Assembly: GCF_038024065.1 (NCBI RefSeq) | Contig: NZ_CP150667.1 | Coordinates: 3,541,501-3,605,500 of the forward strand | Origin: Polaribacter sejongensis | GTDB lineage: Bacteria > Bacteroidota > Bacteroidia > Flavobacteriales > Flavobacteriaceae | Reading direction: 5' to 3' | Length of the DNA stretch: 64,000 bases | Part shown: positions 37,962 to 63,772 of the stretch, piece by piece | Position numbering within the stretch: the stretch's first letter is position 1 | Layout of the letters: every line of letters starts with the position of its first letter | Notes under the pieces: model-generated | Databases searched by the model: none | What the model saw: only the letters and a program-made list of their open reading frames with translations | Told to the model about the DNA's origin: nothing | Program-made: the position numbers and the translations under genes

Positions 37962-38610
37962 CGGTTTTAATATTTTATATACCTATTATTTGTCTAAATT
38001 TTAGGTGTGTGAAATTTGTGCTAAGATTAAAGAAATATAGTAGTTAATAAACTTCATTAAATTAATCTACAGATATTAAATATCTGCACCTTATTTTTTA
38101 AAAAGTGTGTTCATTTTTTTATTCTTATTGTAATGTAAGAATGAAAATGTATACAGCCATTTTTTTACTCTTTACTTTTTTTTGATAATAAATATATAAA
38201 ATATAAAGATATCGTAATTTGTTACCTATGATTTTAAGTAATTAAAAAAATAAGTGCAAATTAAAAAGATATTACTAATATTTGTTAAAGAATATAATAC
38301 ACTTCTTAATACATAGTTTTAAAAGATTTTTTTGAAGTTTTTTTATTAAAAAGCATTCAAGTCTATCTAAATACTTTTAAGGTTTGTCGTGTTGTTGTGA
38401 AAATTACTATTTAAAAAGTAGGGAATCTCTTGTAAACATTGTATAAACGAGTAGTTTATTGTGCTTTTTGTATCTAAAAAAAAATACATATAAATCTATA
38501 TTTTTGAGTAAAATGTCCATACCAAAAATAAACTACTGAACTAATTTTAACGAAATATTAATAATTATTATAACGATTAACTAAAAATTATTTTAACTAA
38601 ACTATTTAAA
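37962..38610. other. Long AT-rich region upstream of susC
   Basis: No coding frame or strong hairpin is seen in 649 bp. The only clear signal is the operator/promoter at 38494-38549. This region separates the housekeeping block from the polysaccharide utilization locus. Confidence 0.6.
38494..38549 (+). promoter_or_regulatory. PUL operator/promoter E (susCD operon)
   Basis: Half-sites ATCTATA (38494-38500) and GTCCATA (38515-38521) are 21 bp apart, and the -7-like TAATTTTA (38542-38549) starts 27 bp after the second. The spacing is identical to the other four PUL promoters. Each of half-site 1 and the -7 element deviates by one base from the consensus. Confidence 0.65.
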
Positions 38611-41600
38611 ATGGAAAAACTTAAACTCTTATTAATTGCCTTTATTATAGGTTTTTCATCTTTAACATTTGCACAAGATTCTGTATCTGGTGTTGTAACA
38701 GATGAACAAAACCAACCAATTCCGGGAGTTAGTGTCTTTATTAAAGGGACCACTATTGGAACAACTACAGATTTTGATGGTGAATATCAAATCAAAGCGA
38801 GTAAAAGTAATGTTATTGTCTTTTCTTATTTAGGCTTTAAAACGTTAGAAATTACTTATAACGGACAATCACCTTTAACAGTTCAATTAAAGGAAGATAC
38901 TGCAACATTAGAAGAAATTGTAGTAGTAGGTTATGGTTCTGTTAAAAGGTCTGACTTAACAGGTGCTGTTTCATCTATAGGAGCATCTGAATTAACAGAA
39001 CAGAAGAAAACAGATATTGGGCAAGCTGTTAAAGGACAAGTTGCTGGGGTAGATGTTAGATCGCTTAGCAATAAACCAGGTGCACCTCTTAGTATTAGAA
39101 TTAGAGGTAATACTGCTATTAGAAATGATGCATATGTTGGTCGTGACGGAGCAAGTGATGATCCTACTTTGGATAGAACAAAACCATTATATGTGGTAGA
39201 TGGTATTTTCTTTGAAGATATAAATATTTTAAATCCAGCAGATATTCAACAAATGGATATTTTGAAGGATGCATCTGCAACGGCTATATATGGTTCTCGT
39301 GGAGCAAACGGTGTAGTTATTATAACAACCAAAAATGGTGTAGAAGGAAAAACAGTTTTTACATATGAGGCAACAATGGGGTTTAGAACTGTAGCAAATG
39401 AGCCAGATTTTTTTACAGGTGATGAATATGTAGCTTTTGTAGATGATGTTATAAGAAGTAGAGAGTTTGGAAAATTATTTAATTCAGGAACGCCTACTGT
39501 AGCAGATTATAATAATATAGATGTGTCTTCTTTTATAAACACAGAAATAAGAACAACAAATGAAGAAGCTAGTAATGTAGCTAACAGACGTTATACAAAC
39601 TGGATAAAAGATTATCAAAAAACAGGCTTGCAAACGAGTCATAATTTTGGGATGTCTGGTGGAACAAATGGTTTGGTATATAGTGCTAGTTTAGGGTATT
39701 TAAGTGATGAAGGTGTTATAGGTATAGAAGCTTATGAACGTTATAATTTAAGCCTTTCACTTTCTAAAAGAGTGTCTGATAAGTTAACTGTAGGCTTAAA
39801 ATCTTATTTGGCTTTTTCTGAAAGAGAAGAAGGAAGTAGAGAATTATATAGAAGTACACAACGTTTAGCACCAACAGTAAACTCTCGTGATACAGATGGT
39901 AATCTTATTTTATTTCCAGATGATCAAGATACCCGTTTTACAAATCCTTATTACGATGCAAATGGAGAATGGACTGTAAATACAAAATCTTTAGATGTTA
40001 TAGCAAATGTGTTTGTAAACTATAAGCCTACAGATTGGGTTAGTTTTAAAACGCAATTTGCACCAAATATTAAAACGACCAGATTTGGAGAGTTTAGAGG
40101 TTTGTACACTAAAGCTGCTCGTAATGATCCTAGTAGAATACAATCACACTATGATACTTATTTTAATACATCTTATAGTTGGGATAATATTGTTGATTTT
40201 AATTTTGATGTTGCAAAAGGTCACAATCTTAAAGCAACACTTATTTCTTCATTGTATTATAACCAAAGAGAGAATGGGAAAATAGAAACTAGAAATTTTG
40301 ATACCAATGAATATTTGTTTTATAATACAGAATCTGGTACAGATATAAGAGATTATGATACTGAATATGTTAAAGAATCATTAGCGTCTTTTGCAGGAAG
40401 AATAAATTACAGCATTAATGATAAGTATCTTTTTACTTTTTCTGGAAGGTATGATGGTTCTTCTAAATTAGCAACAGATAATAAATGGGCATTCTTTCCA
40501 TCAGCAGCTTTTGCTTGGAAAATATCAGATGAAGATTTTATACACAATACAGATTGGTTAAGTAACTTAAAATTACGTTTAAGTTATGGTGAAGCAGGTA
40601 ATGATACTTCTGTTAGTGCATATGATTCTCTTGCTTTTTTAAGTAATAATGATTATTTATTTGGAGAATCTGCAGCAAACGGTGTTAGTGTATCTGGTTT
40701 ACCTAATAGTAATTTAACTTGGGAACGTACAAAAGAATTTAATATTGGTTTAGATTTTGGTATTATACAAAATAGAGTAGCATTGTCTTTAGAACTTTAT
40801 AATAAAAAAACAGTGGGTAGTATTTTTGGAAGAACATTATCTCCTATTTCTGGTTTTAGTGCTGCAATTGGTAATTTTGGTTCTGTAAGAAATAGTGGTA
40901 TAGAAATTACTTTAAATACAAGAAATATTCAAACAGATAACTTTAGCTGGAGAACTAGTTTTAATTTTGCTAAAAACAAGAATGAGATTCTTGAATTAGA
41001 TGGAGATTTAGATTTATTGCCTTACGAAGATCATGGTGTTTTACAGGTAGGACAACCAGCTGATGCTATTTGGAGTTACCAAAGAGATGGTATTTGGCAA
41101 TTAGATGAAATTGCAGAAGCAGATGTTTATGGTCAAGATCCAGGACAACGTAAATATGTAGATCAAAATAATGATGGTGTATTAAATGATGAAGATAAAG
41201 TTGTCTTAGGTCAATTATCTCCAGATTGGACGGCGGGTCTTACAAATACATTTACGTATAAAAATTTAGATCTTTCAATTCAAGCCTATACAAGACAAGG
41301 TAGTTATGGTCATTCAGAATTTAATTCACTATCTGTGCCATGGAATGGTGATGATGCTACTTTTAATAAAGTTGATTTAGATTATTGGACACCTAATAAC
41401 CCAGATTCAGAAAATCCAGCTTTAGAATATGGTGCAAATGGAGATTACTATACAGATTTCGATTTTGTTCGTATTGGTAATATTGGTTTAGGATATCAAT
41501 TTTCTGATAAGATGTTAGATAAATTACAAATGTCGAGTTTACGTTTATCAGTAAATATTCAAAACCCATTTACATTTACAGATTATGAAGGTTCAGATCC

Positions 41601-41679
41601 AGAAACAGGACTTCAAAACAATTATAATGGAGGATATTTGACTAAAACAGTATTATTCGGTCTTAAATTATCTTATTAA
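38611..41679 (+). CDS. SusC-type TonB-dependent outer membrane glycan importer
   Basis: This 1022-residue importer has a signal peptide at 1-21 (LLLIAFIIGFSSLTFAQ). A carboxypeptidase-like beta domain at about 23-100 follows (VSGVVTDEQNQPIPGVSVFIKGT ... DFDGEYQI). The TonB-box region VVVGYG lies at 104-109, a plug at about 115-230 (GQVAGVDVRS, IRIRGN, PLYVVDG, DASATAIYGSRGANGVVIITTK), and a 22-strand barrel ends with a short C-terminal strand (FGLKLSY). It imports oligosaccharides with the SusD protein encoded 18 bp downstream. This is the first gene of the PUL; its promoter carries the PUL operator, so it is likely induced by the glycan. Confidence 0.96.
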   Translation: MEKLKLLLIAFIIGFSSLTFAQDSVSGVVTDEQNQPIPGVSVFIKGTTIGTTTDFDGEYQIKASKSNVIVFSYLGFKTLEITYNGQSPLTVQLKEDTATLEEIVVVGYGSVKRSDLTGAVSSIGASELTEQKKTDIGQAVKGQVAGVDVRSLSNKPGAPLSIRIRGNTAIRNDAYVGRDGASDDPTLDRTKPLYVVDGIFFEDINILNPADIQQMDILKDASATAIYGSRGANGVVIITTKNGVEGKTVFTYEATMGFRTVANEPDFFTGDEYVAFVDDVIRSREFGKLFNSGTPTVADYNNIDVSSFINTEIRTTNEEASNVANRRYTNWIKDYQKTGLQTSHNFGMSGGTNGLVYSASLGYLSDEGVIGIEAYERYNLSLSLSKRVSDKLTVGLKSYLAFSEREEGSRELYRSTQRLAPTVNSRDTDGNLILFPDDQDTRFTNPYYDANGEWTVNTKSLDVIANVFVNYKPTDWVSFKTQFAPNIKTTRFGEFRGLYTKAARNDPSRIQSHYDTYFNTSYSWDNIVDFNFDVAKGHNLKATLISSLYYNQRENGKIETRNFDTNEYLFYNTESGTDIRDYDTEYVKESLASFAGRINYSINDKYLFTFSGRYDGSSKLATDNKWAFFPSAAFAWKISDEDFIHNTDWLSNLKLRLSYGEAGNDTSVSAYDSLAFLSNNDYLFGESAANGVSVSGLPNSNLTWERTKEFNIGLDFGIIQNRVALSLELYNKKTVGSIFGRTLSPISGFSAAIGNFGSVRNSGIEITLNTRNIQTDNFSWRTSFNFAKNKNEILELDGDLDLLPYEDHGVLQVGQPADAIWSYQRDGIWQLDEIAEADVYGQDPGQRKYVDQNNDGVLNDEDKVVLGQLSPDWTAGLTNTFTYKNLDLSIQAYTRQGSYGHSEFNSLSVPWNGDDATFNKVDLDYWTPNNPDSENPALEYGANGDYYTDFDFVRIGNIGLGYQFSDKMLDKLQMSSLRLSVNIQNPFTFTDYEGSDPETGLQNNYNGGYLTKTVLFGLKLSY

Positions 41680-41697
41680 TTTTAAACTATATAAAAG

Positions 41698-43344
41698 ATG
41701 AAAATTTTAAAAAACATAAAATATTCAATAGGTATACTAAGTTGTATAATGCTATTAAATGCTTGTGAAAGCTATATTGAAGAGAAGATATACTCAGATA
41801 TAACAAGCGAAAACTTTATTACCGAAGATACTGCAGATCAATTAGTGGTAGGTGTTTATACTCAAGTGCGTTCGGTTTATAAAAATTACGGTTATAAATT
41901 TCAAGGTACTGATATCTTTACTAATCAAAATGATGTAACTGCTACGAGTTCTGCTAATGACTATGTTGGTTTTACGGCTCCAAACACTAACAGCGTTTGG
42001 TCTAATAATTACGATGTTATTGCAAAGTCTAATACAGCAATTAATCGTTATGAAAACCAAATAGATTGGAGTACTCCAAGATTAGCAGATAAAGCTTATG
42101 GTATTGCGCAAGCGAAAGGATTAAGAGCATTAGCTTTTTTTAATTTAGTACAACAATTTGGAGGTGTAGTATTAGATTTAGAAGAGCCACAAACTATTCG
42201 TTCAGATTATACGCGTTCTACAGAAGAAGAAACGTATACACTTATAATAGAAGAATTAGAAGCGGCAATTCCAGATTTAGAAGTTGCTCCAGAAGCAGGA
42301 CGTTTTTCTAAAAGAGCTGCGCAACACTTATTAGCAGAGGTATATTTAACTAGAGCGTATAAATCTTATGGTTTAAGTACAGATTTTGCAACTGCAGCAG
42401 CTTTAGCAGAATCAGCAATAGGTTCTTATGATATTAGAAGTCAGTCTTTTGCTCAGGTTTTTGATTTTAATAATCAAGTAAATGATGAGGTTTTATTTGC
42501 AGCACAATGGGGATCAGAAGGTATTACAGCAGATAAAAATAATAATAAGCATGCGCTTTTTATGTATCAAGTTTTTAACTTACCAGGTATATCTAGAGTT
42601 AATTCTTATGGGTTAAAAAGTGGAAGTGATATGCCAACACCATTTTTCTATTCTTTATTTGCAGATAATGATTCTAGAGAAGATGTTACTATACATCGTG
42701 CTCTTATTGCAAATGAAGATGAAACAGGAGGTATAGCGCCTATATCTGTTGGTGATACTATTGTTTATTTTCCAAAAGTAGCATTAAGTGCGGCAGAATT
42801 AGCAGATCATTTAGATCGTCATTGGGTATATCAACCAGATCAATATGGCTTTGGTAGACCAACAGATGTTCCTGGGACCACTTTCTTATATTCTGAAAAT
42901 ACAGAATTTACAAACTTTCCAATTTTTAAGAAATTTGATGATCAAGATTTTAGTGAGGATGGAGAGGGATCTCGTGATACTTTTATCTTTAGAGTAGCAG
43001 GAACACATTTAATAGCTGCAGAAGCATATTTAGGAGCTAATAATTTAGCATCAGCATTAAATCATATTAACATAGTTAGAGAGCGTGCTACAGGAGTTGC
43101 TAACGAATATACCTCTATAACTATAGATGATATTTTAAATGAACGAGCATTAGAACTTGCGGCTGAAGATGATAGATGGGCTGTTTTAAAAAGAACAGGT
43201 AAATTAGAAGAAAGAATTAAACTTTATAATCCGGCAGTAATAGATCATGGCGCTTTTGATGCTAGTATTCATTTATTACGTCCAATTCCAGATCAAGAAT
43301 TAACACTTTCTCCTGATACTATGGTGCAAAATCCTGGATACTAA
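41698..43344 (+). CDS. SusD-type glycan-binding lipoprotein
   Basis: This 548-residue lipoprotein has a signal peptide ending in lipobox LLNAC (Cys23). A SusD-like N-terminal region with TPR helices (about 90-240, AKGLRALAFFNLVQQFGG, RAAQHLLAEVYLTRA) is followed by the RagB/SusD C-terminal domain, with HLIAAEAYLGANN, ALNHINIVRERA and the typical ERALELAAEDDRW motif, ending QNPGY. It forms the lid of the SusC transporter and captures the glycan at the surface. It is co-transcribed with susC, and a strong terminator lies downstream. Confidence 0.95.
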   Translation: MKILKNIKYSIGILSCIMLLNACESYIEEKIYSDITSENFITEDTADQLVVGVYTQVRSVYKNYGYKFQGTDIFTNQNDVTATSSANDYVGFTAPNTNSVWSNNYDVIAKSNTAINRYENQIDWSTPRLADKAYGIAQAKGLRALAFFNLVQQFGGVVLDLEEPQTIRSDYTRSTEEETYTLIIEELEAAIPDLEVAPEAGRFSKRAAQHLLAEVYLTRAYKSYGLSTDFATAAALAESAIGSYDIRSQSFAQVFDFNNQVNDEVLFAAQWGSEGITADKNNNKHALFMYQVFNLPGISRVNSYGLKSGSDMPTPFFYSLFADNDSREDVTIHRALIANEDETGGIAPISVGDTIVYFPKVALSAAELADHLDRHWVYQPDQYGFGRPTDVPGTTFLYSENTEFTNFPIFKKFDDQDFSEDGEGSRDTFIFRVAGTHLIAAEAYLGANNLASALNHINIVRERATGVANEYTSITIDDILNERALELAAEDDRWAVLKRTGKLEERIKLYNPAVIDHGAFDASIHLLRPIPDQELTLSPDTMVQNPGY

Positions 43345-43389
43345 TAACAGTATAAAAATAAGTTTGTTTTGAGCTGGTTTTGAAATATG

Positions 43390-43623: not shown

Positions 43624-43679
43624 ATCCATATATTTCTATTATAAATCCATATTAAAAAAAAGTTTAGAAAGTAACTTTG
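43624..43679 (+). promoter_or_regulatory. PUL operator/promoter A (GH3-GH88 operon)
   Basis: ATCCATA at 43624-43630 and at 43645-43651 are 21 bp apart. The -7 element TAACTTTG at 43672-43679 starts 27 bp after the second half-site and matches TAnnTTTG fully. There is no good -33 TTG; the proximal half-site covers that position, as expected for an activator-dependent promoter. Confidence 0.75.
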
Positions 43680-43702
43680 AAATTGAATTATAATTGAATA
43701 AA

Positions 43703-46123
43703 ATGAAAATATTTAAATTTTTTGTACCTGTTTTTTGTTTGGTTTTTTTAACATCTGTAGTGGTTTTAAAAAAGAAGAAAGATATCTATAAAAAAGGATG
43801 GATTGATTTTAATAAAAATGGAGTTAAGGATATTTTTGAAGATCCTACCCAAAGAATAGATGCAAGAGTAGCTAGTCTTTTATCTCAAATGACTGTTAAT
43901 GAAAAAACAGCTCAAATGGTTACTTTGTATGGATATTCTAGAATTTTACAAGATGAATTACCTACTGAAGAATGGAAAAATAGTGCTTGGAAAGATGGAG
44001 TAGCTAACATTGATGAGCATTTAAATACGATTCAAAATCGTCCTTCAACATATAACGATTATTCATTTCCGTATAGCAGTCATGCAGAAGCTATAAATAC
44101 CATTCAAAAATGGTTTATAGAAGAAACAAGACTTGGTATACCTGTAGATTTTACGAATGAAGGAACACATGGTTTAACACATGATAGAGCAACTCCGTTA
44201 CCTGCTCCTATAGGAATTGGTAGTACTTGGAATACGGAATTAGTAAATAGAGCAGGGAAAATTATTGGAAGAGAAGCCAAAGCACTTGGTTATACCAATG
44301 TATATGCGCCTATTTTAGATGTTGCAAGAGATCCTAGATGGGGAAGAATTGTAGAGAGTTTTAGTGAAGATCCATTTCTAATTTCTGAATTAGGAATACA
44401 AATGACAAAAGGAATTCAATCTGAAGGAGTAGCTTCTACATTAAAGCATTTTGCCGTATATAGTGTACCTAAAGGCGGGCGAGAAGGAAAAGCGAGAACA
44501 GATCCACATGTTGCTCCAAGAGAGTTACATCAAATGTATTTATATCCTTTTAAAAAGGTTATTGAAGAGGCAAAGCCTATGGGGATAATGAGTAGTTATA
44601 ATGATTATGACGGAGTTCCGGTTACTGGTAGTCATTATTTTTTAACAGAATTATTAAGAAATCAATATGGGTTTGATGGCTATATTGTGTCAGATAGTGA
44701 TGCCGTTAAGTTTTTATCCTCTAAACATCATGTAGCAAAAGATTATAAAGAATCTGTTAGGCAAGTTGTAGAAGCAGGTTTAAATGTCAGAACCAATTTT
44801 AAATCACCAGAATCTTATTTAGAACCATTACGCGAACTAATTAAAGAAGGTGCAATATCAATGAAGACTATAGATACTCGTGTAGCCGATGTTTTGTCTG
44901 TAAAATTTAGATTAGGCTTATTTGATCAACCTTTTGTAGAAAATCCTAAAGAATCTAACAAGTTAGTTCATACAGAAGATGATGAGGAGTTTGCAAAGAA
45001 AATTAGTAGAGAATCATTGGTTTTGTTAAAGAATGAAGATAATTTATTGCCATTAAACATTAAGAACTACAAAAATATTTTGGTTACAGGTCCGTTAGCG
45101 GATGAAGTAAGTTTTACGTATAGTAGATATGGACCTGCAAACAATCCTGCAACTTCTGTTTATAAAGGAATAAAAGAATATGCAGGCAATAACCTAAATG
45201 TAAATTATGTAAAAGGATGTAATGTAGTAGACCCTAATTGGCCAGGGAGTGAAATTATACCAACAGAACTTTCTGCAGAAGAACAACAAGGTATAGATGA
45301 CGCAGTTGCAAAAGCAAACGAGTCTGATATTATAATAGCCGTACTTGGTGAAGATGAAAAAAGAGTAGGAGAATCTAGATCTAGAACAAGTTTAGGTTTA
45401 CCAGGTAGACAATTTCAACTAATACAGGCTTTATATAAAACAGGAAAACCGGTTGTTTTAGTTTTGGTTAATGGACGTCCGTTAACTATTAATTGGGAAG
45501 ATAAATTTATACCAGCTATTTTAGAAGCTTGGTTTCCTGGACCATCTGCAGGAGAAGTAATTGCCGAAACTTTATTTGGAGATTATAACCCAGGAGGAAA
45601 GTTACCAGTTACGTTTCCTAAAGCTGTAGGTCAAATTCCATTAAATTTTCCATTTAAACCAGGTTCTCAAGCAAGTCAACCAGGAGAAGGACCAAATGGT
45701 TATGGAAATACAAGAGTTTTAGGGCCTATTTATCCCTTCGGATTTGGATTAAGTTACACTACGTTTGATTATAGCGATTTAAAAGTAAGTCCAACAAAAG
45801 GGAAGGTTAAATCTGATATTCATGTTTCATTTAAAATTAAAAATACAGGAAAGAGAGAAGGAGATGAGGTTGTTCAACTGTATTTAAAAGATGAAGTGAG
45901 TAGCGTAACTACGTATGAATCTCAATTAAGAGGTTTTAAACGAGTTCATTTACTTTCAGGGGAAACAAAGACAGTAAACTTTGTATTGCATTCAGATGAT
46001 TTAGAACTGTTAGATAAAGATATGAATTGGGTTGTAGAGCCAGGAAGTTTTAAAATAATGATTGGAAGTTCTTCTGAAAACATTCATTTAACAAAAGGGT
46101 TTGAAATACTACCAATTGATTAA
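43703..46123 (+). CDS. Glycoside hydrolase family 3 enzyme (exo-beta-glycosidase), copy 1
   Basis: The ATG at 43703 is preferred; an in-frame TTG lies 9 bp upstream. From the ATG the protein is 806 residues. It has a signal peptide (about 1-20), a short segment GWIDFNKNGVKDIFEDP found in many Bacteroidetes GH3 enzymes, a TIM-barrel domain with PILDVARDPRWGR, STLKHFAVYS and the nucleophile Asp331 in IVSDSDA, an alpha/beta domain with IIAVLGEDE, and a C-terminal fibronectin III-like domain. GH3 enzymes release terminal beta-linked sugars (glucose, xylose); specificity cannot be fixed. It is closely related to the GH3 at 47628 and is followed after 72 bp by a GH88 gene in the same operon. Confidence 0.92.
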   Translation: MKIFKFFVPVFCLVFLTSVVVLKKKKDIYKKGWIDFNKNGVKDIFEDPTQRIDARVASLLSQMTVNEKTAQMVTLYGYSRILQDELPTEEWKNSAWKDGVANIDEHLNTIQNRPSTYNDYSFPYSSHAEAINTIQKWFIEETRLGIPVDFTNEGTHGLTHDRATPLPAPIGIGSTWNTELVNRAGKIIGREAKALGYTNVYAPILDVARDPRWGRIVESFSEDPFLISELGIQMTKGIQSEGVASTLKHFAVYSVPKGGREGKARTDPHVAPRELHQMYLYPFKKVIEEAKPMGIMSSYNDYDGVPVTGSHYFLTELLRNQYGFDGYIVSDSDAVKFLSSKHHVAKDYKESVRQVVEAGLNVRTNFKSPESYLEPLRELIKEGAISMKTIDTRVADVLSVKFRLGLFDQPFVENPKESNKLVHTEDDEEFAKKISRESLVLLKNEDNLLPLNIKNYKNILVTGPLADEVSFTYSRYGPANNPATSVYKGIKEYAGNNLNVNYVKGCNVVDPNWPGSEIIPTELSAEEQQGIDDAVAKANESDIIIAVLGEDEKRVGESRSRTSLGLPGRQFQLIQALYKTGKPVVLVLVNGRPLTINWEDKFIPAILEAWFPGPSAGEVIAETLFGDYNPGGKLPVTFPKAVGQIPLNFPFKPGSQASQPGEGPNGYGNTRVLGPIYPFGFGLSYTTFDYSDLKVSPTKGKVKSDIHVSFKIKNTGKREGDEVVQLYLKDEVSSVTTYESQLRGFKRVHLLSGETKTVNFVLHSDDLELLDKDMNWVVEPGSFKIMIGSSSENIHLTKGFEILPID

Positions 46124-46195: not shown

Positions 46196-47410
46196 ATGAT
46201 AAATAGAAGCTTTATTAATAAAATTTCGGTGTTGTTTGTTTTAATGTTGATGTCAAAATCAATGTTTTCTCAAGAGCAAAATAAAGATCAATTTGATTAT
46301 CAAAAAGTATTAGATTATTGTATTGATAAGAGTTTACATACTGTTTCTTCTTTTAATGATAACGATAAATTTCCAAGATATATAGAAACGGATGCTACAC
46401 ATTGGGAGTCTGATAAAGTAGAGAATTGGATTAGTGGTTTTTGGCCAGGTATTTTATGGTATTCGTTTGAGGCCTCTAACAATCTAGCATTAAAACAAAG
46501 TGCAGCGTTATATACCCAAAAGCAACAGGTTGTAATGGATAAGCCTATTCGTAGTCATGATTTAGGATTTATGCTTTATTGTAGTTATGGTAATGGGTAT
46601 AGGCTCACAAAAAACTCTGCCTATAAAACCTTGCTTTTAAGTGCAGCAGATTCCTTGGCAACACTTTATAATCCTACAGTTGGCACTATACTTTCATGGC
46701 CATCTAAAAGAAAAAATAACAATTGGCCTCATCATACTATTATAGATAATATGATGAATTTAGAACTTTTGTTTTGGGCTGCTAAAAATGGAGGTGCTAA
46801 AAACTTGTATAATATTGCTGTTAAGCACGCAGAAACAACAATGAAACATCATATTCGTACGGATAATACAACCTATCATGTGGTTTTTTATAACGATAAA
46901 AATGGTGATTTTATCAAAGGAAAAACACACCAAGGATATACTGATGATTCATTATGGGCTAGAGGACAAGCATGGGGAATTTATGGTTTTACGATGTGTT
47001 ATCGGGAAACAGGAAAAGTAGAATTTATGGAAACAGCTATAAAGTTGGCTGATGCTTATATTAAAAACTTACCCAATGATTTAATTCCGTATTGGGATTT
47101 TAATGACCCAAGTATTCCTAATACTCCTCGTGATGCTTCTGCAGCTGCTGTTGTAGCGTCTGCTTTATTAGAATTATCCAGTTTAAATACAGATGCTTTA
47201 ATATCAGAAAAATACAAGGGTATTGCTATTAAAATGTTGCAATCATTGTCTTCGGATATGTATTTAAGTAAAGATAAAAATAATGCTTTTTTATTGCATT
47301 CTACTGGGAATAAACCCAAAAATAGAGAAGTAGATGTGTCTATAATTTATGCTGATTATTATTATATAGAAGCTTTATTGTTATTAAAAAAGATAAGTTT
47401 AAAAGGATAA
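46196..47410 (+). CDS. GH88 unsaturated glucuronyl hydrolase
   Basis: This 404-residue periplasmic enzyme has a signal peptide at about 1-25 (VLFVLMLMSKSMFSQ). It adopts an alpha/alpha barrel with family motifs WISGFWPGILWY, SHDLGFMLY with Asp122, IIDNMMNLELLFWA with Asp184, and HQGYTDDSLWARGQAWGIYGF. The two aspartates are 62 residues apart, as in characterised GH88 enzymes (about 61). GH88 removes the 4,5-unsaturated uronic acid that a polysaccharide lyase leaves at the non-reducing end. Its presence predicts that the PUL substrate is a uronic-acid polymer cut by a lyase, consistent with the heparinase-type gene downstream. Confidence 0.9.
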   Translation: MINRSFINKISVLFVLMLMSKSMFSQEQNKDQFDYQKVLDYCIDKSLHTVSSFNDNDKFPRYIETDATHWESDKVENWISGFWPGILWYSFEASNNLALKQSAALYTQKQQVVMDKPIRSHDLGFMLYCSYGNGYRLTKNSAYKTLLLSAADSLATLYNPTVGTILSWPSKRKNNNWPHHTIIDNMMNLELLFWAAKNGGAKNLYNIAVKHAETTMKHHIRTDNTTYHVVFYNDKNGDFIKGKTHQGYTDDSLWARGQAWGIYGFTMCYRETGKVEFMETAIKLADAYIKNLPNDLIPYWDFNDPSIPNTPRDASAAAVVASALLELSSLNTDALISEKYKGIAIKMLQSLSSDMYLSKDKNNAFLLHSTGNKPKNREVDVSIIYADYYYIEALLLLKKISLKG

Positions 47411-47546: not shown

Positions 47547-47602
47547 ATCCATATATAAAAGAAATAAATCCATATTGTCTAAATGACTAAATGGTAGTTT
47601 TG
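47547..47602 (+). promoter_or_regulatory. PUL operator/promoter B (second GH3-lyase operon)
   Basis: ATCCATA at 47547-47553 and 47568-47574 (21 bp apart) and -7 TAGTTTTG at 47595-47602, all at the same spacing as promoter A. Flanking bases are also like promoter A (TATATCCATATAT and TAAATCCATATT), fitting duplication together with the GH3 gene. Confidence 0.75.
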
Positions 47603-55420: not shown

Positions 55421-57754
55421 ATGAATAAGACGAAAATAAAATACTTAAAAAAAATTAAAGGCATATTTTTGGGTTTAGGAATTTTTGGATTATTACTGCT
55501 AAATAGTTGTGGCTCATCAGAAATAAAAGAAACTACAGCGGTTGTAGAGCTTGTTGATCTGGTTTATCCTTTGTTAGATACAGAGAATTCTCGATGGTTT
55601 TTCTTCTCATCTGCAAGTCGTCCTTTTGGTATGGTTAATTTAAGTCCGGATACTCAAGTAGGCGGAGCATGGGGAAGCGGTTATCGTTATAAAACGGATA
55701 CTATAAAAGGGTTTAGTCATATTCATGCTTGGCAACTTTCTGGATTATCTGTAATGCCTGTTGCTATTAATAATGATAATAGAAAAACAATTTATACAGA
55801 TTTCTACTCTAAATTTAATCACGAAACGGAAGAAGTATCTCCAGGATATCATCAAGTTTTTTTAGATAGATCTCAAACTAAAGTAGAATTAACAAGTACA
55901 AAACGAGTTGGTTTTCATCGTTATAATTTTTTAGAAGAAAAACAGAAAGCTATTTTATTTAGCTTGAATGGAAAGTTAGGTCCTTGTATTATTACCGATG
56001 GAAAACTGATTAAAACAGGAGATTATGAGTTGTCTGGAGAATTGGTAAATGCACCAACAATTAGAAGACCAAAACCAACTAAAGTGTTTTTTAGTGTTCA
56101 ATTAAATACTAAAGTTAAAGCTGTAACTAAAGATACTGAAACTGGAAATTATCTTATAGATCTTTCTGATGACAAAGCAGAAGTACTTATGAAAGTTGCT
56201 ATTTCGTACACGTCTGTTAAAAACGCATCAGAAAACATGAAAGCAGAGTTAGACCATTGGGATTTTGATACTGTAATAAAAGAATCAAGAACCGAATGGA
56301 ATGAGATGTTAGGTAGAATTAAAGTAGAAGGAAATTCTGAAACAGCACAAAGAAGATTCTATACAGATTTATGGCATGGTTTACAAGGTAGAAGAACTAT
56401 TAACGATGCTAATGGTGCGTACCCAGATAATACTGGAGATGCTTTTAGAATTGGTCAATTACCTGTAGATGCTAACGGAAAACCTTTGTTTAACCATTAT
56501 AATACGGATGCTTTTTGGGGTGCACAATGGACTATAAACACCCTTTGGGGTCTAGTATATCCAGAGATAATGGATGAGTTTGTGAATTCTTTAATGCAAT
56601 ATTATAAAGATGGAGGTATTGTTCCTCGTGGACCTTCTGGTGGTAATTATACGTATGTAATGACCGGATCTTCCGCTACGCCATTTATGGTTAGTGCCAT
56701 ACAGAAAGGTATTGTTACTGATAATTTAGAAGGTATTTACCAAGCATTAAAAAAGACACACATGCCTGGTGGAATAATGGAAAAAGCAGGTTATGAACAC
56801 AAAACATCATTAGGAGGTGGTTTAAAATATTACTTAGAAATAGGATATGTTCCTTACCCAATTCCAGAAGGTAAATTTGGTCATCATCAAGATGGAGCTA
56901 GTTTAACAATGGAGTATGCGTATCAAGATTTTACGTTGGCGCAATTGGCTAAGAAACTTGGTCATAAAGAAGATTATGAATACTTTTTAAAAAGATCTAC
57001 TAATTATAAAAACACTTTTGATACTGCATCTGGTTGGATGCGTCCACGTGAGGTTAACGGAAAATGGCATGGAGATTTAGATCCTTATATGTATGAAACT
57101 GGGTTTAATGAATCTAATGGAGCGCAATCAACTTGGTTTGTACCTCATGATCTTGCTGGTTTAGCAGATTTAATGGGTGGAAAAGAAAAAGCAATAGCAC
57201 AATTAAATACTCAGTTCAAAACTGCAGAAAAAATTGGTTTTACTTCTGGTAGCTCTCATGATAGAGAATTACATCCAGAATATAGAAGAATTCCTATCAA
57301 TTACGGAAATCAACCTTCTATGCAAACAGCACAAATATTTAATCAATTAGGTCGTCCAGATTTAGCTCAATTTTGGACACGCAAAGTAGTAAAAAGTGTG
57401 TTTTCTGGGTTGGGTCCAAATACTGGGTTTAATGGTGATGAAGATCAAGGTTTAATGGGGAGTTTATCTGTATTATTAAAGGTTGGTTTATTTCAAATGA
57501 ATGGAGGAACTGAGAAAAATCCAGAGTACCAAATTGGAAGCCCAATTTTTGATAAAGTAACAGTCCAATTAAATCCTGATTATTATAAAGGGAAAGAATT
57601 TGTTATTGAAACAAAAAATAATTCAGAAGAAAATTTTTATATTAAAGACGTAAAACTAAATAATCAATCGATAGATAATTTAAATATTAGTCATGAAGAT
57701 ATTATAAATGGAGGTTCTTTGGTTTTAGAAATGACAAATACATTAAGCGAATAG
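55421..57754 (+). CDS. Divergent GH92-family glycosidase, lipoprotein
   Basis: This 777-residue protein has a lipobox LLNSC (Cys30). The GH92 N-terminal domain shows VYPLLDTENSRWFFFSSASRPFGMVNLSPDT and GYRYKTDTIKGFSHIH. The C-terminal (alpha/alpha)6 domain carries FWGAQWTINTLWGLVYP, the TMEYAYQDF segment with Glu498, INYGNQPSMQTAQIFNQLG and GFNGDEDQG. GH92 enzymes are calcium-dependent exo-alpha-mannosidases. Here the usual NDDCGQMSAWYV-like motif is replaced by GDEDQGLMGSLSVLL, so specificity may differ from alpha-mannosides. It lies 51 bp after the GH115-like gene and 28 bp before the GH29 gene. Confidence 0.8.
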   Translation: MNKTKIKYLKKIKGIFLGLGIFGLLLLNSCGSSEIKETTAVVELVDLVYPLLDTENSRWFFFSSASRPFGMVNLSPDTQVGGAWGSGYRYKTDTIKGFSHIHAWQLSGLSVMPVAINNDNRKTIYTDFYSKFNHETEEVSPGYHQVFLDRSQTKVELTSTKRVGFHRYNFLEEKQKAILFSLNGKLGPCIITDGKLIKTGDYELSGELVNAPTIRRPKPTKVFFSVQLNTKVKAVTKDTETGNYLIDLSDDKAEVLMKVAISYTSVKNASENMKAELDHWDFDTVIKESRTEWNEMLGRIKVEGNSETAQRRFYTDLWHGLQGRRTINDANGAYPDNTGDAFRIGQLPVDANGKPLFNHYNTDAFWGAQWTINTLWGLVYPEIMDEFVNSLMQYYKDGGIVPRGPSGGNYTYVMTGSSATPFMVSAIQKGIVTDNLEGIYQALKKTHMPGGIMEKAGYEHKTSLGGGLKYYLEIGYVPYPIPEGKFGHHQDGASLTMEYAYQDFTLAQLAKKLGHKEDYEYFLKRSTNYKNTFDTASGWMRPREVNGKWHGDLDPYMYETGFNESNGAQSTWFVPHDLAGLADLMGGKEKAIAQLNTQFKTAEKIGFTSGSSHDRELHPEYRRIPINYGNQPSMQTAQIFNQLGRPDLAQFWTRKVVKSVFSGLGPNTGFNGDEDQGLMGSLSVLLKVGLFQMNGGTEKNPEYQIGSPIFDKVTVQLNPDYYKGKEFVIETKNNSEENFYIKDVKLNNQSIDNLNISHEDIINGGSLVLEMTNTLSE

Positions 57755-57782: not shown

Positions 57783-59084
57783 ATGAAGAAAAAAATAAAT
57801 TTAATACTTGTACTGTTCATAACTTGTTTTTCTGTTTTTGGACAGCTTAAGAATAAACCCCAACTAGATGAAGATTTTATGGATATGGGTTTTGGAATTT
57901 TTGTGCATTGGAGTATGGATTCTCAATTAGGAAGTGTGATAAGTCACTCTTTAGTTGGAGCCTCAGACAATTATGTAAATAAATATTTTAATGAACTTCC
58001 AAAAACATTTTATCCAGATAAATTTGATGCGGAAGAATGGGCTCGTTTATTTAAAATATCCGGAGCAGAATATGTAGTTTTTACTGCAAAGCATCATAAT
58101 GGTTTTTGTATGTGGGATACCAAAACAACCGATTTTAATATTATGAATACTCCTTACGGAAAAGATATTGTTGCAGAACTTGTTACAGCTTTACGTAAAT
58201 ACGATTTAAAAGTAGGTATTTATTTTTCTCCAGAAGATTTTAGTTTTATCCATAAACAAGGACACTTAATTTCTCGAAAAGGACCAATGACACAAATTGG
58301 AGCCAATAAAGAGCTTTTTGAATATGATAAAGCTCAGGTTAGAGAGTTAATTAATAATTATGGACCAATAGATGTTATGTTTTTTGATGCATTTCAATCT
58401 AAACCTATGGCGCAGTATGTTCATAAAATAGCTCCGGAAATTGTTGTTACTAGAGGTGAAATGAAAACACCAGAACAATCTATTCCTGGTGGAGCAATGC
58501 CAGGGCCTTGGGAAACCTGTATGACTATGGGAACACAATGGCAGTATAAACCTACCAATGATGTTTATAAAGATGGTTCTGAATTAATAGAGAAATTGAT
58601 AGAAATTCGTGCAAAAGGCGGAAATTTCTTGATGAATATTGGTCCTAAACCAAATGGTGAAATCCCAAAAGAGCAAGAAGAGCGTTTACGTGAAATTGCA
58701 TTGTGGATGTATGTTAACGAAGAAGGTGTTAAAAATGTGAGAACAGTTCCAACAATAATTAAAGATGGAGATATGTGGTTCACAAAAGGTAAAGATGATA
58801 AAACAGCTTATGTTTTTATTACGGGACAAAAAAATTGGTTTAAAGGTGGTAGAAGAAATTTTCTTCTGAAAAATATGAGAGCTACATCAAAAACTACGGC
58901 TTCTGTATTAGGTCAGAATGATTTAGTGGTAGAATACTGGCCAGAAAACTTACCAACTACAAGGTATATTCAACATAAAGAATTATTAGAGATTTCTGTA
59001 AGTAGAGCCCAACGCCTCTATAATAATAAAATTTGGCACAATCCAATTGTTGTTAAATTAACAGATGTTGAATTTATTAAATAA
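57783..59084 (+). CDS. GH29 alpha-L-fucosidase family enzyme
   Basis: This 433-residue periplasmic enzyme has a signal peptide at about 1-20 (NLILVLFITCFSVFGQ). The TIM barrel shows GFGIFVHWSMDSQLGS, YVVFTAKHHNGFCMWDTKTTDFNI, KVGIYFSPEDF and IDVMFFDAFQSK, with the likely nucleophile Asp202. ETCMTMGTQWQY and GGNFLMNIGPKPNGEIP follow, and a small beta domain closes the protein. GH29 releases alpha-linked L-fucose, though some members act on alpha-L-galactose-like sugars. The short length lacks extra C-terminal CBM domains. It is part of the GH115-like/GH92/GH29/GH3/GH78 operon. Confidence 0.88.
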   Translation: MKKKINLILVLFITCFSVFGQLKNKPQLDEDFMDMGFGIFVHWSMDSQLGSVISHSLVGASDNYVNKYFNELPKTFYPDKFDAEEWARLFKISGAEYVVFTAKHHNGFCMWDTKTTDFNIMNTPYGKDIVAELVTALRKYDLKVGIYFSPEDFSFIHKQGHLISRKGPMTQIGANKELFEYDKAQVRELINNYGPIDVMFFDAFQSKPMAQYVHKIAPEIVVTRGEMKTPEQSIPGGAMPGPWETCMTMGTQWQYKPTNDVYKDGSELIEKLIEIRAKGGNFLMNIGPKPNGEIPKEQEERLREIALWMYVNEEGVKNVRTVPTIIKDGDMWFTKGKDDKTAYVFITGQKNWFKGGRRNFLLKNMRATSKTTASVLGQNDLVVEYWPENLPTTRYIQHKELLEISVSRAQRLYNNKIWHNPIVVKLTDVEFIK

Positions 59085-59150
59085 ACTTTATTCTATTAAA
59101 AGAATAAATAGATACGATTATAGTAGGTTACTATCTTTAAACTAGATTTT

Positions 59151-61706
59151 ATGAGAAAAATATTAAATATTTTGGTAATTATGTTGTTGCCGTTTTATGT
59201 GTTTAGTCAAGCTAAATATCCTTTTAATAACCCAGATTTACCAATAGATACTAGAGTAGAAGACTTATTAGGTAGGTTAACAATTACAGAAAAGGTATCT
59301 TTACTTGTTAGTACTGCAGAAGAAATAAAACGTTTAGAGGTAGATAAATATTACCATGGTAATGAAGGATTACATGGGGTTGTTAAAGGAGGTCGTTTTA
59401 CGGTGTTTCCTCAAGCTGTTGCACTTGCTTCAACCTGGAATCCTAATCTTATTCATAATGTAGCAACTGCTATTTCTGATGAAGCGAGAGCAAAATGGAA
59501 TTTCTATAATCAAGGAAAAGATCAACTAAACCCATATAGTGATTTATTAACCATGTGGTCGCCTACAATTAATATGGCAAGAGATCCACGTTGGGGACGT
59601 ACTCCAGAAACTTATGGAGAAGATCCATTTTTAACAAGTAAAATAGGGCTTTCATTTGTTACAGGTTTACAAGGTGATGACGATAAATATTTAAAAGTAG
59701 TTTCTACACCCAAGCATTTTGTAGCCAATAATCAAGAAGAAAATAGATTTGCTTATAATGCAGAAATATCAGAAAGAGCCTTAAGAGAATATTATTTACC
59801 CGCTTTTAAAACGGCTATTGTAGAAGGAAAAGCACAATCTATAATGAGTGCTTACAATGCAATAAACGGAATTCCAGCTACAGCAAATTCTTGGTTGTTA
59901 AATGATGTTTTAAGAAAAGAATGGGGCTTTAAAGGATATGTTGTTAGTGATTGCGGAGCGCCTACTTATTTAAAAAAATCACATCATTTTGTTAGTAATG
60001 ATACTTTAGCGGCTAAAGCAGCTATTGAGGCTGGTTTAGATTTAGAGTGTGGCGATAATATTTATAAAAAATATCTAATTCTTGCATTAGAACAAGGATT
60101 AATTACGGAAGAATTAATTAATCAATCTGTTAGAAGAGTCTTAGAATCTCGATTTAAATTGGGTATTTTTGATCCGGCAGAAGGAAACCCTTACACAAAA
60201 ATATCACCAGATGTAATTGGTTCACAAAAACATCAAGATCTTGCGTTAGAGACTTCTCGTCAATCTATAGTATTACTTAAAAACCAAAAGAATATATTAC
60301 CTTTAAATGCGAATAAAATCAAAAAAATAGCTGTTGTTGGTTTCAATGCAAACCAAGTAGTTTTTGGAGACTATAGTGGATTGCCTGTTATTTCTCCAAT
60401 ATCACCAGTTAAAGGTATTCAAAATAAAGTAGGAAAAGATATTGAAGTTCAATTTGTAAAATGGAAAACTGCAGCTAGAAACTTAAACCTTTTAGAATCA
60501 GAATATTTACGTAATGATAAGAATGATGATAAAGGGTTGTTTGCAGAATATTATGACGATAAATTTTTAGAAGGAACTCCAAGAACAAGAACCGATAAAG
60601 TAGTTAATTTCGACCCTGTTAATCAACCACCAGATTCATATAGTAATTACCGTCACAAATCTATGAGATGGACAGGTTATATTACGCCTAATATTACTGG
60701 ATCTTATAAAATAGGAGTTAATTCTGATGATGGAGTTCGTTTATGGTTAAATGATAAATTAGTTGTTGATGAATGGCACAATAGAGGTAAAACGACCGAC
60801 CAAGTAGATATTAAAATGGAAGCTGGTAAAAAATACAGCATTAAGTTAGAATATTTTGATAATGGAGGAGATGCTATTTGCCAATTATTATGGAAAGTTC
60901 CAGGTGGTTCTGGTGATATATATGAAGAGGATTGGAAAGCTGCCAGAACTAGCGATTATGTTATTGCTGTAATGGGAATTAATAAAACTATAGAAAAAGA
61001 AGGAAAAGATAGAACTGAGTTAGGGTTACCTGAAGATCAAGTAAACTACTTAAAGAAAATGTACAGCATAAACAAAAATGTAGTTGTTGTACTTGTAGCA
61101 GGAAGCTCATTATCTGTTAATTGGATGGATAAAAATGTGCCTGCAATTGTAGAAGCTTGGTATCCTGGAGAAAGTGGTGGTACAGCTATTGCTGATGTGT
61201 TATTTGGAGATTATAATCCTGGAGGACGTTTGCCTTTTACCTTCTATAAATCTGAGAAAGATTTACCATCAATGGATGATTACGAAGTAACAAATGGTAG
61301 AACTTATATGTATTTTGAAGGTGAAGCCCTTTATCCTTTTGGATATGGTTTAAGTTATACTTCTTTTGAATACAATAATATGTCAATTGATAAAAAAGAC
61401 GATACTATTACTGTTTCTATGACTGTAAAAAATACAGGTAAATATAAAGGAGATGAGGTTGTTCAGTTGTATGTAAACGATGTGAAATCATCTGTAAAAA
61501 GACCTATTAAACAGTTAATTGGTTTTGATAGAGTTTCGCTTAAAGTTGGTGAAGCAAAAACAATATCATTCGAAGTTTCAAAAGACAAATTAATGTTTTG
61601 GGACGAAGAAAGTGATCAGTGGGTTTTTGAAGCAGGTAAATTTGAATTTATGCTAGGAGCATCTTCAAGTGACATCCGTTTAAATAAAACGTTTAAGATA
61701 AAATAG
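59151..61706 (+). CDS. GH3 enzyme with inserted PA14 domain
   Basis: This 851-residue protein has a signal peptide at about 1-20 (ILVIMLLPFYVFSQ). The barrel contains HGNEGLHGVVKGG, PTINMARDPRWGRTPETYGEDP, VSTPKHFVANN and the nucleophile Asp267 in VVSDCGAP. A PA14 domain at about residues 460-590 is inserted in the alpha/beta domain (GLFAEYYDDKFLEG ... GSYKIGVNSDDGVRLWLND), followed by VIAVMGINKTIEKEGKDR and a fibronectin III-like end. PA14-bearing GH3 enzymes are usually beta-glucosidases or beta-xylosidases, where PA14 shapes the substrate pocket. It is clearly a different GH3 subgroup from the two upstream copies. Confidence 0.92.
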   Translation: MRKILNILVIMLLPFYVFSQAKYPFNNPDLPIDTRVEDLLGRLTITEKVSLLVSTAEEIKRLEVDKYYHGNEGLHGVVKGGRFTVFPQAVALASTWNPNLIHNVATAISDEARAKWNFYNQGKDQLNPYSDLLTMWSPTINMARDPRWGRTPETYGEDPFLTSKIGLSFVTGLQGDDDKYLKVVSTPKHFVANNQEENRFAYNAEISERALREYYLPAFKTAIVEGKAQSIMSAYNAINGIPATANSWLLNDVLRKEWGFKGYVVSDCGAPTYLKKSHHFVSNDTLAAKAAIEAGLDLECGDNIYKKYLILALEQGLITEELINQSVRRVLESRFKLGIFDPAEGNPYTKISPDVIGSQKHQDLALETSRQSIVLLKNQKNILPLNANKIKKIAVVGFNANQVVFGDYSGLPVISPISPVKGIQNKVGKDIEVQFVKWKTAARNLNLLESEYLRNDKNDDKGLFAEYYDDKFLEGTPRTRTDKVVNFDPVNQPPDSYSNYRHKSMRWTGYITPNITGSYKIGVNSDDGVRLWLNDKLVVDEWHNRGKTTDQVDIKMEAGKKYSIKLEYFDNGGDAICQLLWKVPGGSGDIYEEDWKAARTSDYVIAVMGINKTIEKEGKDRTELGLPEDQVNYLKKMYSINKNVVVVLVAGSSLSVNWMDKNVPAIVEAWYPGESGGTAIADVLFGDYNPGGRLPFTFYKSEKDLPSMDDYEVTNGRTYMYFEGEALYPFGYGLSYTSFEYNNMSIDKKDDTITVSMTVKNTGKYKGDEVVQLYVNDVKSSVKRPIKQLIGFDRVSLKVGEAKTISFEVSKDKLMFWDEESDQWVFEAGKFEFMLGASSSDIRLNKTFKIK

Positions 61707-61747
61707 GTTCTACCCTTTATGAGTCTAATTGTATAAAAAATAAATTA

Positions 61748-63607
61748 ATGAAATTAAGATCTAAAAGAAAGTATTATTTTTTACAAGCCATCTTTTTATT
61801 ATCATTCACTTTTGTTCAATCTCAAATTACAAGTGCGCCAACAGAAAATGATTTTGAAACAGAACTCGTTAAGCCTGTAAAAGTAATAAAGGTAGCAGAA
61901 GGTCATTATTTTATCGATTTTGGTAAAGCTTATTTTGGTACAGTTGTTATGCATTCTAAAAAACAACAAAACGATAGTTTGATTGTTCATTTAGGCGAAA
62001 AATTAAATGATAATAAACTAATTGATAAAACACCAGGGGGAACAATACGTTATCAAAAAGCAAAGTTAAATCAATTAGATGCTAATCAAAATATAGTTAT
62101 CAGCCTAAAGGCTGATAAAAGAAACACAAAAGTAGGTGCCATTCAATTGCCTAGTTCTTTTGGGGTAATTATGCCTTTTAGATATTGTGAAATAGAGAAT
62201 CTTAAAATTCCAATTGAGGAATTAGATATTTATCAAAAAGGATATTATTATAAATTTGATGATGAAGCAGCTATTTTTAAATCATCAGATACTATATTAA
62301 ATGCAGTTTGGGATTTAGGTAAACATACTATAAAGGCAACAAGTTTTACAGGTTATTATGTAGATGGAGATAGGGAACGTATTCCGTATGAAGCTGATGC
62401 ATACATCAATCAGTTAAGTCATTATGCTTTAGATAGTGAATATTCGTTAGCACGTAGAACAAATGAATACTTTATAAATCATCCTACTTGGCCAACAGAA
62501 TGGCTTCTTCATACGGTATTATTGTTTTATCAAGATTACATGTATACAGGAGAAGTGGAAATGCTAGAGAAGTATTACGATGTTCTAAAGACAAGAACTT
62601 TAATGGACTTAGAACGTAAAGATGGTTTAATTAGCTCTAAATCTGATAAATTAACAGGCGATTTTAAGTTAGAACTAGGTTTTACAAAACCAGATACTAG
62701 AGTTAGAGATATTGTAGATTGGCCAGCAGGACAAAAAGATACAGGATGGAAATTAGCCAATAAAAATGGAGAACGAGATGGATACGAAATGGTGGCTATT
62801 AATACCGTAGTTAATTCATTTTACTATTACAATTTACACTTAATGTCTAAAATTGCTGATGCTCTTGATAAAACAGAAGATGTTGCCTTTTTTAGACAGA
62901 AAGCAGCACAAGTTAAAGAAGTTATAAATAATAAATTATTTGATGAATCTAGAGGGATATATATTGATGGGGAAGGATCCTCTCATGCTTCTCTGCATGC
63001 TAATATGTTTCCTTTAGCATTTGATCTTGTACCAGATAAATACAAAAAAACGGTAACAGAATTTATTAAAACAAGAGGAATGGCTTGCAGTGTTTATGGG
63101 GCACAATATTTATTAGAAGGTTTATACAAAGCCAATGAAGCAGAGTATGCATTAGAACTGATAACAGAAACAGAAAGTGATCGTTCTTGGTGGAATATGA
63201 TTAAAATTGGTTCTACAATGGCGTTAGAAGCTTGGGATATGAAATACAAACCAAATTCTGACTGGAACCATGCTTGGGGTACTGCACCTACAAATATAAT
63301 TTCTCGTTACATGTGGGGAATTACACCAAAAACACCAGGTTTTAATACTGTTCAAATTAAACCTCAATTACATACTTTAAGTTCTTCAGAAATAAAAGTA
63401 CCAACAATTAAAGGAAGTATAGAAGCTAAGTTTAATTTAACAAAGAAAGGTTATGAACGTTACCAAATAGCACTTCCTAAAAACATGAATGGCGAGTTTG
63501 TTATTCTTAACAATGTAAGTAAAGTTATTTATAATGGTAACCCTATTAATAAAACTGAAATAATTACACTTAAAACGGGTGTAAATACAATCATTCTTGT
63601 AAAATAA
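61748..63607 (+). CDS. GH78 alpha-L-rhamnosidase
   Basis: This 619-residue exported protein has a signal peptide at about 1-25 (YYFLQAIFLLSFTFVQS). A beta-sandwich domain (about 40-150) precedes the (alpha/alpha)6 rhamnosidase barrel, with DGDRERIPYEAD at 206-217 (Asp208, Glu210 and Glu215 are candidate catalytic acids), PTEWLLHTVLLFYQDYMYTGE, DWPAGQKDTGW, SDRSWWNMI and DWNHAWGTAPTNIISRYMWGI, then a short C-terminal beta domain. It is shorter than many GH78 enzymes (about 900-1000) because extra N-terminal beta domains are absent. It removes terminal alpha-L-rhamnose. It is the last gene of the promoter C operon. Confidence 0.9.
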   Translation: MKLRSKRKYYFLQAIFLLSFTFVQSQITSAPTENDFETELVKPVKVIKVAEGHYFIDFGKAYFGTVVMHSKKQQNDSLIVHLGEKLNDNKLIDKTPGGTIRYQKAKLNQLDANQNIVISLKADKRNTKVGAIQLPSSFGVIMPFRYCEIENLKIPIEELDIYQKGYYYKFDDEAAIFKSSDTILNAVWDLGKHTIKATSFTGYYVDGDRERIPYEADAYINQLSHYALDSEYSLARRTNEYFINHPTWPTEWLLHTVLLFYQDYMYTGEVEMLEKYYDVLKTRTLMDLERKDGLISSKSDKLTGDFKLELGFTKPDTRVRDIVDWPAGQKDTGWKLANKNGERDGYEMVAINTVVNSFYYYNLHLMSKIADALDKTEDVAFFRQKAAQVKEVINNKLFDESRGIYIDGEGSSHASLHANMFPLAFDLVPDKYKKTVTEFIKTRGMACSVYGAQYLLEGLYKANEAEYALELITETESDRSWWNMIKIGSTMALEAWDMKYKPNSDWNHAWGTAPTNIISRYMWGITPKTPGFNTVQIKPQLHTLSSSEIKVPTIKGSIEAKFNLTKKGYERYQIALPKNMNGEFVILNNVSKVIYNGNPINKTEIITLKTGVNTIILVK

Positions 63608-63716
63608 GAACCTTAAATAAAAGAGTAAATAAGGTTCATCTAATTTCATGAAAATGGAGTTAGGTTAACCTGTTTATTGCACTTACATCAAATTATAGTC
63701 TAAAAAGTAGTTATTT

Positions 63717-63772
63717 GTCCATATATATGAAGGATTCATTCATATAGAAGTGATCTTTTTTCTTGAGATTTG
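63717..63772 (+). promoter_or_regulatory. PUL operator/promoter D (PI-PLC-like gene)
   Basis: GTCCATA at 63717-63723 and ATTCATA at 63738-63744 are 21 bp apart. GAGATTTG at 63765-63772 starts 27 bp after the second half-site and keeps the TTTG of the -7 element. It is weaker than A-C in single bases but exact in spacing. Confidence 0.6.

Follow-up and report, generated by a model that had tools for sequence, protein, structure and literature searches.

Direct-repeat motifs whose two sites lie 21 bp apart on average have been predicted for 16 hybrid two-component systems (HTCSs) of Bacteroides thetaiotaomicron (Ravcheev et al. 2013, PMC3878776), and phosphorylation-dependent promoter binding has been shown for the HTCS receiver and DNA-binding domains (DBDs) of BT4124 and BT4663 (PMC11253607). 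In AraC-type DBDs, as in MarA, the first helix-turn-helix (HTH) binds the A-box and the second HTH the B-box (PMC8279559); Escherichia coli AraC binds TAGC-N7-TCCATA (PMC4514859), and its I2 half-site at araBAD lies at -51 to -35 (PMC11434276). According to PMC7366714, TAnnTTTG is the -7 element of the main sigma factor of Bacteroidota, and no -33 motif was found in Flavobacterium johnsoniae. In this study, we analysed a stretch of 64,000 bp (hereafter the window; C1:3541501-3605500) of the genome of Polaribacter sejongensis (4.50 Mb, one contig), in which a first-pass annotation had recognised five copies of a 56-bp two-box element in a polysaccharide utilization locus (PUL). We provide evidence that this element is very likely an activator operator joined to a main-sigma promoter and bound by an HTCS encoded at C1:3611176-3615156, just outside the window.

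Like the HTCS operators of B. thetaiotaomicron, these sites are two-site direct repeats of about 21 bp at promoters near an HTCS gene (PMC3878776); unlike them, they number six in one PUL and belong to another taxon. The 21-bp direct-repeat layout of HTCS operators is already published and is shared by the present sites, the half-sites being compared by layout only. What is added here is a TTTTGA at the centre, an invariable register to the -7 element (the excerpted text of PMC3878776 describes none to TAnnTTTG) and a link to E. coli AraC.

The pattern scanned was RTCCATA-N14-RTCCATA-N20-TAnnTTTG (56 bp), with mismatches counted against the consensus. Five matches with no more than 3 mismatches were found in the window, all on the + strand, each at the head of a transcription unit inferred from gene spacing:

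38494..38549, + strand: operator/promoter 1, ahead of susCD (box 1 38494-38500, TTTTGA 38502-38507, box 2 38515-38521, -7 element 38542-38549)
43624..43679, + strand: operator/promoter 2, ahead of glycoside hydrolase (GH) genes GH3 and GH88-like (box 1 43624-43630, poor centre 43632-43637, box 2 43645-43651, -7 element 43672-43679)
47547..47602, + strand: operator/promoter 3, ahead of GH3 and Hepar_II_III-like genes (box 1 47547-47553, poor centre 47555-47560, box 2 47568-47574, -7 element 47595-47602)
53178..53233, + strand: operator/promoter 4, ahead of GH115-like, GH92, GH29, GH3-PA14 and GH78-like genes (box 1 53178-53184, centre TTGTGA 53186-53191, box 2 53199-53205, -7 element 53226-53233)
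63717..63772, + strand: operator/promoter 5, ahead of PI-PLC, GH115, metallophosphatase and HTCS genes, the last three outside the window (box 1 63717-63723, centre ATATGA 63725-63730, box 2 63738-63744, -7 element 63765-63772)

In all five sites the half-sites lie exactly 21 bp apart from start to start, and the -7 element starts exactly 27 bp after the start of the second half-site. The coordinates and both spacings given by the first-pass annotation were thereby recovered without change; its description of the architecture as identical holds for the spacing and is too strong for the sequence, since only the sites at 43624, 47547 and 53178 are free of mismatches. The site at 38494 departs from the consensus in box 1 (ATCTATA) and the -7 element (TAATTTTA), and that at 63717 in box 2 (ATTCATA) and the -7 element (GAGATTTG), with a single mismatch in each of these elements. 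The chance level, from 100 dinucleotide shuffles of the window, was 0.04 matches at no more than 3 mismatches, and none of the 100 shuffles reached five.

A genome-wide scan, which had been proposed as a check, returned six full-pattern matches at no more than 2 mismatches, all inside this one PUL. The sixth is new and lies just past the window end (C1:3615164, 1 mismatch); it begins 8 bp past the stop codon of the HTCS gene, ahead of genes for a ROK kinase and an MFS transporter. All six inferred units have a site, and no gene start inside a unit has one at 3 mismatches or fewer, in agreement with the earlier claim that the sites head every unit and are never internal. At no more than 3 mismatches the genome gave 12 matches, six of them at exactly 3, against 11 with the reversed pattern, so matches at 3 mismatches are noise. 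When the -7 element was left out, the half-site pair was not enriched in the whole genome at no more than 2 mismatches (145 matches versus 267 for the reversed control), which argues that the -7 register belongs to the signal. A de novo search of 16 upstream regions found ATCCATA at lag 21 in 6 of the 16, and at most 2 for every other lag from 12 to 33.

The expectation that an AraC-type or HTCS regulator would be encoded near the PUL was borne out by a protein of 1326 aa with Pfam domains Reg_prop, Y_Y_Y, HisKA, HATPase_c, Response_reg and HTH_18. A propeller sensor, kinase, receiver and AraC HTH in one protein make it an HTCS, whose sensor is presumably periplasmic, and its gene belongs to the PUL that holds susCD. 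It is the last gene of unit 5, which runs from the site at 63717 through a PI-PLC-C1 protein, a GH115 and a metallophosphatase to the HTCS. A second SusCD locus, with an ECF-sigma-like and a FecR-like gene, comes directly after this PUL at C1:3617737-3624487, as read from translations without family search.

A consensus was derived from 34 non-redundant sites from several genera of Bacteroidota (4 near-duplicates among 38 were dropped; two sites, L196 and L197, are probably chance and are kept in the counts). It reads [R/T]TCCAT-N2-TTTTGA-N3-A-N3-RTCCAT-N21-TAnnTTTG. T-C-C-A-T is kept across relatives and the final A of TCCATA is not, and a single TTTTGA lies between the boxes, so that the proximal half-site is TTTTGA-N7-RTCCAT. 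TTTTGA as a second full repeat was ruled out, no copy being conserved at -13 or +29. Box-to--7 distances in the ortholog loci described below peak at 48 (16) and 27 (13), with no other distance exceeding 4. The proximal half-site stands at a fixed distance from the -7 element, presumably over or next to the -35/-33 region, as in AraC class II promoters; it would span about -54 to -35, near the position of I2 at araBAD, if starts fall 5-8 nt after the -7 element, the estimate of the first-pass annotation.

The element follows the HTCS into other genomes. GTDB genome contigs were scanned with the HTCS and the best 80 of 587 relatives kept; among these, an ortholog group comprises 15 full-length proteins (45-54% identity) and a partial one (65%), the rest reaching 27-33%. 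DBD identity is 67-81% within the ortholog group and at most 48% among the other relatives listed in these best 80 of 587. Two genomes have two orthologs each: G155 (52% and 51%, at C3:468363 and 500639, about 28 kb apart on one contig) and G161 (48%, and 65% for a partial one, at C4:388784 and C2:3). Our set of 18 genomes consists of the own genome, G046 and 16 drawn from those best 80. In its ortholog loci, 14 of 25 intergenic [AGT]TCCAT pairs are exactly 21 bp apart, every other separation being seen once at most, versus no such pair at 21 bp in 63 loci of other HTCSs; for RTCYAT pairs the counts at 21 bp are 14/19 and 0/18. The core pattern without the -7 element, at no more than 1 mismatch, matched 13 times in ortholog loci and never in the controls.

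An extended pattern, built on sites of the own genome, G046 and eight other ortholog loci (10 of the 18 genomes), occurs in 18/18 whole genomes at no more than 3 mismatches and in 17/18 at no more than 2, with 55 matches versus 5 for the reversed control. The nearest match is on the ortholog's contig and at most 25 kb away in all 18, and 39 of the 55 matches lie within 30 kb of the ortholog, as read and counted from both tables. All eight genomes that had given no site to the pattern (L070, L071, L073, L076, L078, L080, L081 and L082) have a match, seven of them at no more than 2 mismatches. Eight ortholog loci were at first taken as motif-free, until whole-genome scans found the motif beyond the 10-kb flanks or in weak form. 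Among 146 genomes of the genus, the ortholog is present in three (G000, G046 and G026; E up to 1e-250) and the extended motif at no more than 2 mismatches in all three, G026 being likewise blind; of the 143 without the ortholog, three have an extended match, two of these beside a soluble AraC-type gene with the same helix (Fisher p 4e-5 for the association). The third, in G070, has no AraC-type regulator with a DxLYFS helix in 20 kb around it and was taken as chance. By these scans, the element is conserved with the orthologous HTCS (18/18 genomes, eight of them blind, plus G026), as would be predicted for its operator.

The 21-bp spacing looks general among HTCSs and the 27-bp offset does not: in the 63 loci of other HTCSs, self-repeats upstream of TAnnTTTG score best at lag 21, but the offsets to the -7 element are mostly 33-42 and the words differ; these offsets and words rule out the exact geometry as a rule for all HTCSs. 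In three of those loci (L098, L101 and L103), 21-bp repeats of AAAAGGAA-like words precede TAnnTTTG, a different word in the same frame. Plain self-identity in the ortholog loci gave a lag-21 excess that is not unique, other lags reaching 14-17.

The half-site resembles that of AraC itself. We found TAGC-N7-TCCATA in E. coli K-12 DNA, with TAGC repeated at 21 bp. Like AraC at araBAD I1-I2, the present system combines a 21-bp direct repeat, the B-box TCCATA, a D-x-L-Y-F-S-R helix and a proximal half-site beside the -35 region; unlike AraC, it has TTTTGA rather than TAGC as A-box, a membrane HTCS as regulator, a DBD of about 25% identity and a Bacteroidota -7 promoter. The second-HTH helix is GFNDPLYFSRVFKK in this HTCS, GFDDQLYFSRVFKK in AraC (2k9s) and GFNDPKYFSKCFKK in the HTCS of PDB entry 12aw. 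In a helix pattern scan of DBDs, which caught 91 of 94 sequences, AraC and 17 of the 18 orthologs had DxLYFS[R/K], while all 72 other domains lacked it; at the Leu position the remaining ortholog (L072) has Phe, and the 72 others have Ser (30), Lys (26) or another residue (16).

A further lineage was met through genomes that match the motif and have no HTCS ortholog. G015 and G059 encode a soluble AraC-type protein of 295 aa with GF[E/N]DPLYFSRIF, about 190 bp and 1.8 kb from the match. In G015 (L211-L213) the gene lies near SusCD genes, and in both G015 and G059 (L214-L215) several RTCYAT repeats occur in the surrounding intergenic DNA. Three more genomes (G042, G039 and G026), detected with a codon pattern for the helix, encode a regulator of this kind. 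For G015 and G059, selection was thus by the motif and the helix was seen afterwards, whereas G026, G039 and G042 were selected by the helix before their loci were examined for the repeat. Most matches to the loose codon pattern lay in unrelated genes; we followed its D-P-L-Y-F-S-R matches in these three genomes and two matches in the own genome, at L250 and L251, leaving aside a G021 match that reads D-P-F-Y-F-S-R and further candidates for D-x-L-Y-F-S. At L250 and L251 the helix scan gave no AraC-type gene and no intergenic site. All five soluble-regulator loci have an RTCYAT repeat at 21 bp, the spacing of 12 of their 14 intergenic pairs, and 9 of the 12 have a -7 element (no more than 1 mismatch) at exactly 48; the sole G042 pair has none. 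These regulators, of 290-295 aa and from five genomes of the same genus, are like the HTCS in the helix DPLYFSR, in RTCYAT repeats at 21 bp and, mostly, in the -7 register; unlike it, they are soluble, sit at another locus and have DBDs 23-27% identical to that of the HTCS (25-29% to AraC), forming a separate clade. They are related to one another and therefore count as one further lineage, not five. The same helix, box and 21-bp frame accordingly recur in at least three otherwise little-alike lineages, namely E. coli AraC, the HTCS group and the soluble flavobacterial AraC-type proteins. We lean towards the view that the helix D-x-L-Y-F-S-R reads TCCAT in AraC-type proteins wherever it is present; such a helix-to-box rule across lineages was not found in a limited search of excerpted literature on AraC-type regulators. 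The sixth site, the central TTTTGA and the identity of the box with the AraC B-box had been missed by the first-pass annotation.

Several observations weigh against assigning the element to this HTCS, or against its simplest form. Among the own six sites TTTTGA is perfect in two, partial in two (TTGTGA, ATATGA) and poor in two (43624 and 47547); the half-site is not a clean two-box repeat, because the centre varies and no second TTTTGA is conserved. Sixteen of the 55 extended-pattern matches lie away from the ortholog, and G158 (L081) matches only at 3 mismatches. In the genus the extended pattern gave 10 matches in 6 genomes versus 3 control matches in 3, and the original pattern, at no more than 1 mismatch, 5 matches in 2 genomes versus 5 control matches in 5; lone matches in the genus are near background, but clustering beside the HTCS is not. 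The core pattern also matched in other-HTCS loci, five times at 1-2 mismatches (1 + 4) versus no control, and above the reversed control at 3-4 mismatches too. In 10 stretches of the own genome that carry other HTCSs, a word search revealed no clear 21-bp repeat. Finally, the GH3 genes that open units 2 and 3 are tandem duplicates, 73% identical, each with its own operator and with similar flanks at both sites, so operators 2 and 3 may be the product of one duplication rather than independent sites.

That last observation also speaks for regarding the repeats as one promoter copied by duplication and kept by descent without a common regulator. The remaining sites, however, are alike in little but boxes, centre and -7 element, and the same positions are kept over the 34 sites from several Bacteroidota genera; we regard this as the least likely of the alternatives considered. 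It is very unlikely, too, that another AraC-type regulator binds the sites, be it another HTCS or a 341-aa AraC-type protein at C1:3636386. The own genome does encode ten or eleven further HTCS-like and several AraC-type proteins, and an AraC-type gene is found some 21 kb downstream of site 6; yet its product differs in the second recognition helix, the motif tracks orthologs of this HTCS in 18/18 genomes, and other-HTCS loci have no intergenic RTCCAT pair at 21 bp.

E. coli AraC represses when its inducer is absent, and the HTCS might likewise bind and mainly repress, or the direct repeat might serve another purpose such as looping. To this we give even less credence than to a different regulator: in 6/6 sites the distance between proximal box and core promoter is the same, the layout of a class II activator, and HTCSs are described, in the excerpted literature, as inducing their own PUL genes.

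If the element is indeed an activator operator for this HTCS, an oligosaccharide from the target glycan would meet the periplasmic sensor, and the receiver domain would become phosphorylated. Two AraC-type DBDs would then sit side by side on the 21-bp direct repeat, the first HTH reading TTTTGA as A-box and the second, with its helix D-P-L-Y-F-S-R, reading TCCAT beside the -33 region, in an arrangement resembling that of AraC at araI1-I2. Bound in this way, the HTCS would help RNA polymerase at promoters with a TAnnTTTG -7 element, the activator replacing the -33 element. The six sites would switch on the whole PUL, HTCS gene included, and positive feedback is proposed because that gene lies in the operator-headed unit 5.

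The genes behind the window's operators, with the basis of their assignment, are as follows:

38611..41679, + strand: SusC-like TonB-dependent transporter, unit 1 (Pfam, NCBIfam TIGR04056)
41698..43344, + strand: SusD-like lipoprotein, unit 1 (Pfam)
43694..46123, + strand: GH3, unit 2 (Pfam)
46196..47410, + strand: GH88-like, unit 2 (Pfam)
47628..50060, + strand: GH3, unit 3 (Pfam)
50193..52994, + strand: heparinase II/III-like protein, unit 3 (Pfam, weak)
53309..55369, + strand: GH115-like, unit 4 (Pfam)
55421..57754, + strand: GH92, unit 4 (Pfam)
57783..59084, + strand: GH29 alpha-L-fucosidase family, unit 4 (Pfam)
59151..61706, + strand: GH3 with PA14 domain, unit 4 (Pfam)
61748..63607, + strand: GH78-like, unit 4 (Pfam)
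63797..64000, + strand: start of the PI-PLC-C1 gene, first of unit 5, continuing beyond the window (gene order)

Elsewhere in the window, a very long open reading frame (3155 aa) occupies 4766-14233 on the - strand.

Neighbours were surveyed in the flanks of 17 orthologs, up to 10 kb on each side (80 kb for G046), with a cut-off of at least 30% identity over 40% of the query. Recurrent ones were the metallophosphatase (11 loci), GH92 (9), the inositol oxygenase MIOX (6), PI-PLC (5), GH115 (5) and GH29 (5, of which two reach 32-33% identity); no match to GH88, the GH78-like query or either of the two GH3 queries turned up in these flanks. In each of the six loci with MIOX, the match falls in the first gene behind the operator, and Pfam confirmed MIOX in the three loci scanned (L079, L083 and G046); MIOX was not found in the own genome, in a search without positive control. 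Members of the set of PI-PLC-C1, metallophosphatase, GH115, GH92 and MIOX genes are seen at window positions 63797-64000, at L033:298-6155 and in ortholog loci L069, L075, L077, L079, L083 and G046. Taken together, PI-PLC, phosphatase, alpha-glucuronidase and inositol oxygenase suggest a substrate glycan carried on inositol phosphate, such as algal glucuronosyl-inositol phosphoceramides, or glycosyl-inositol-phosphate lipids or similar. No PUL for inositol-phosphate glycans was found in the titles and abstract openings of the papers listed in a literature search, and such a glycan, if it is the substrate, would be an unusual PUL diet.

The locus offers a complete testable regulon for one PUL, with six predicted operons, one regulator and one site. 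If the helix-to-box rule is true, the operators of many uncharacterised AraC-type PUL regulators would be predictable from protein sequence.

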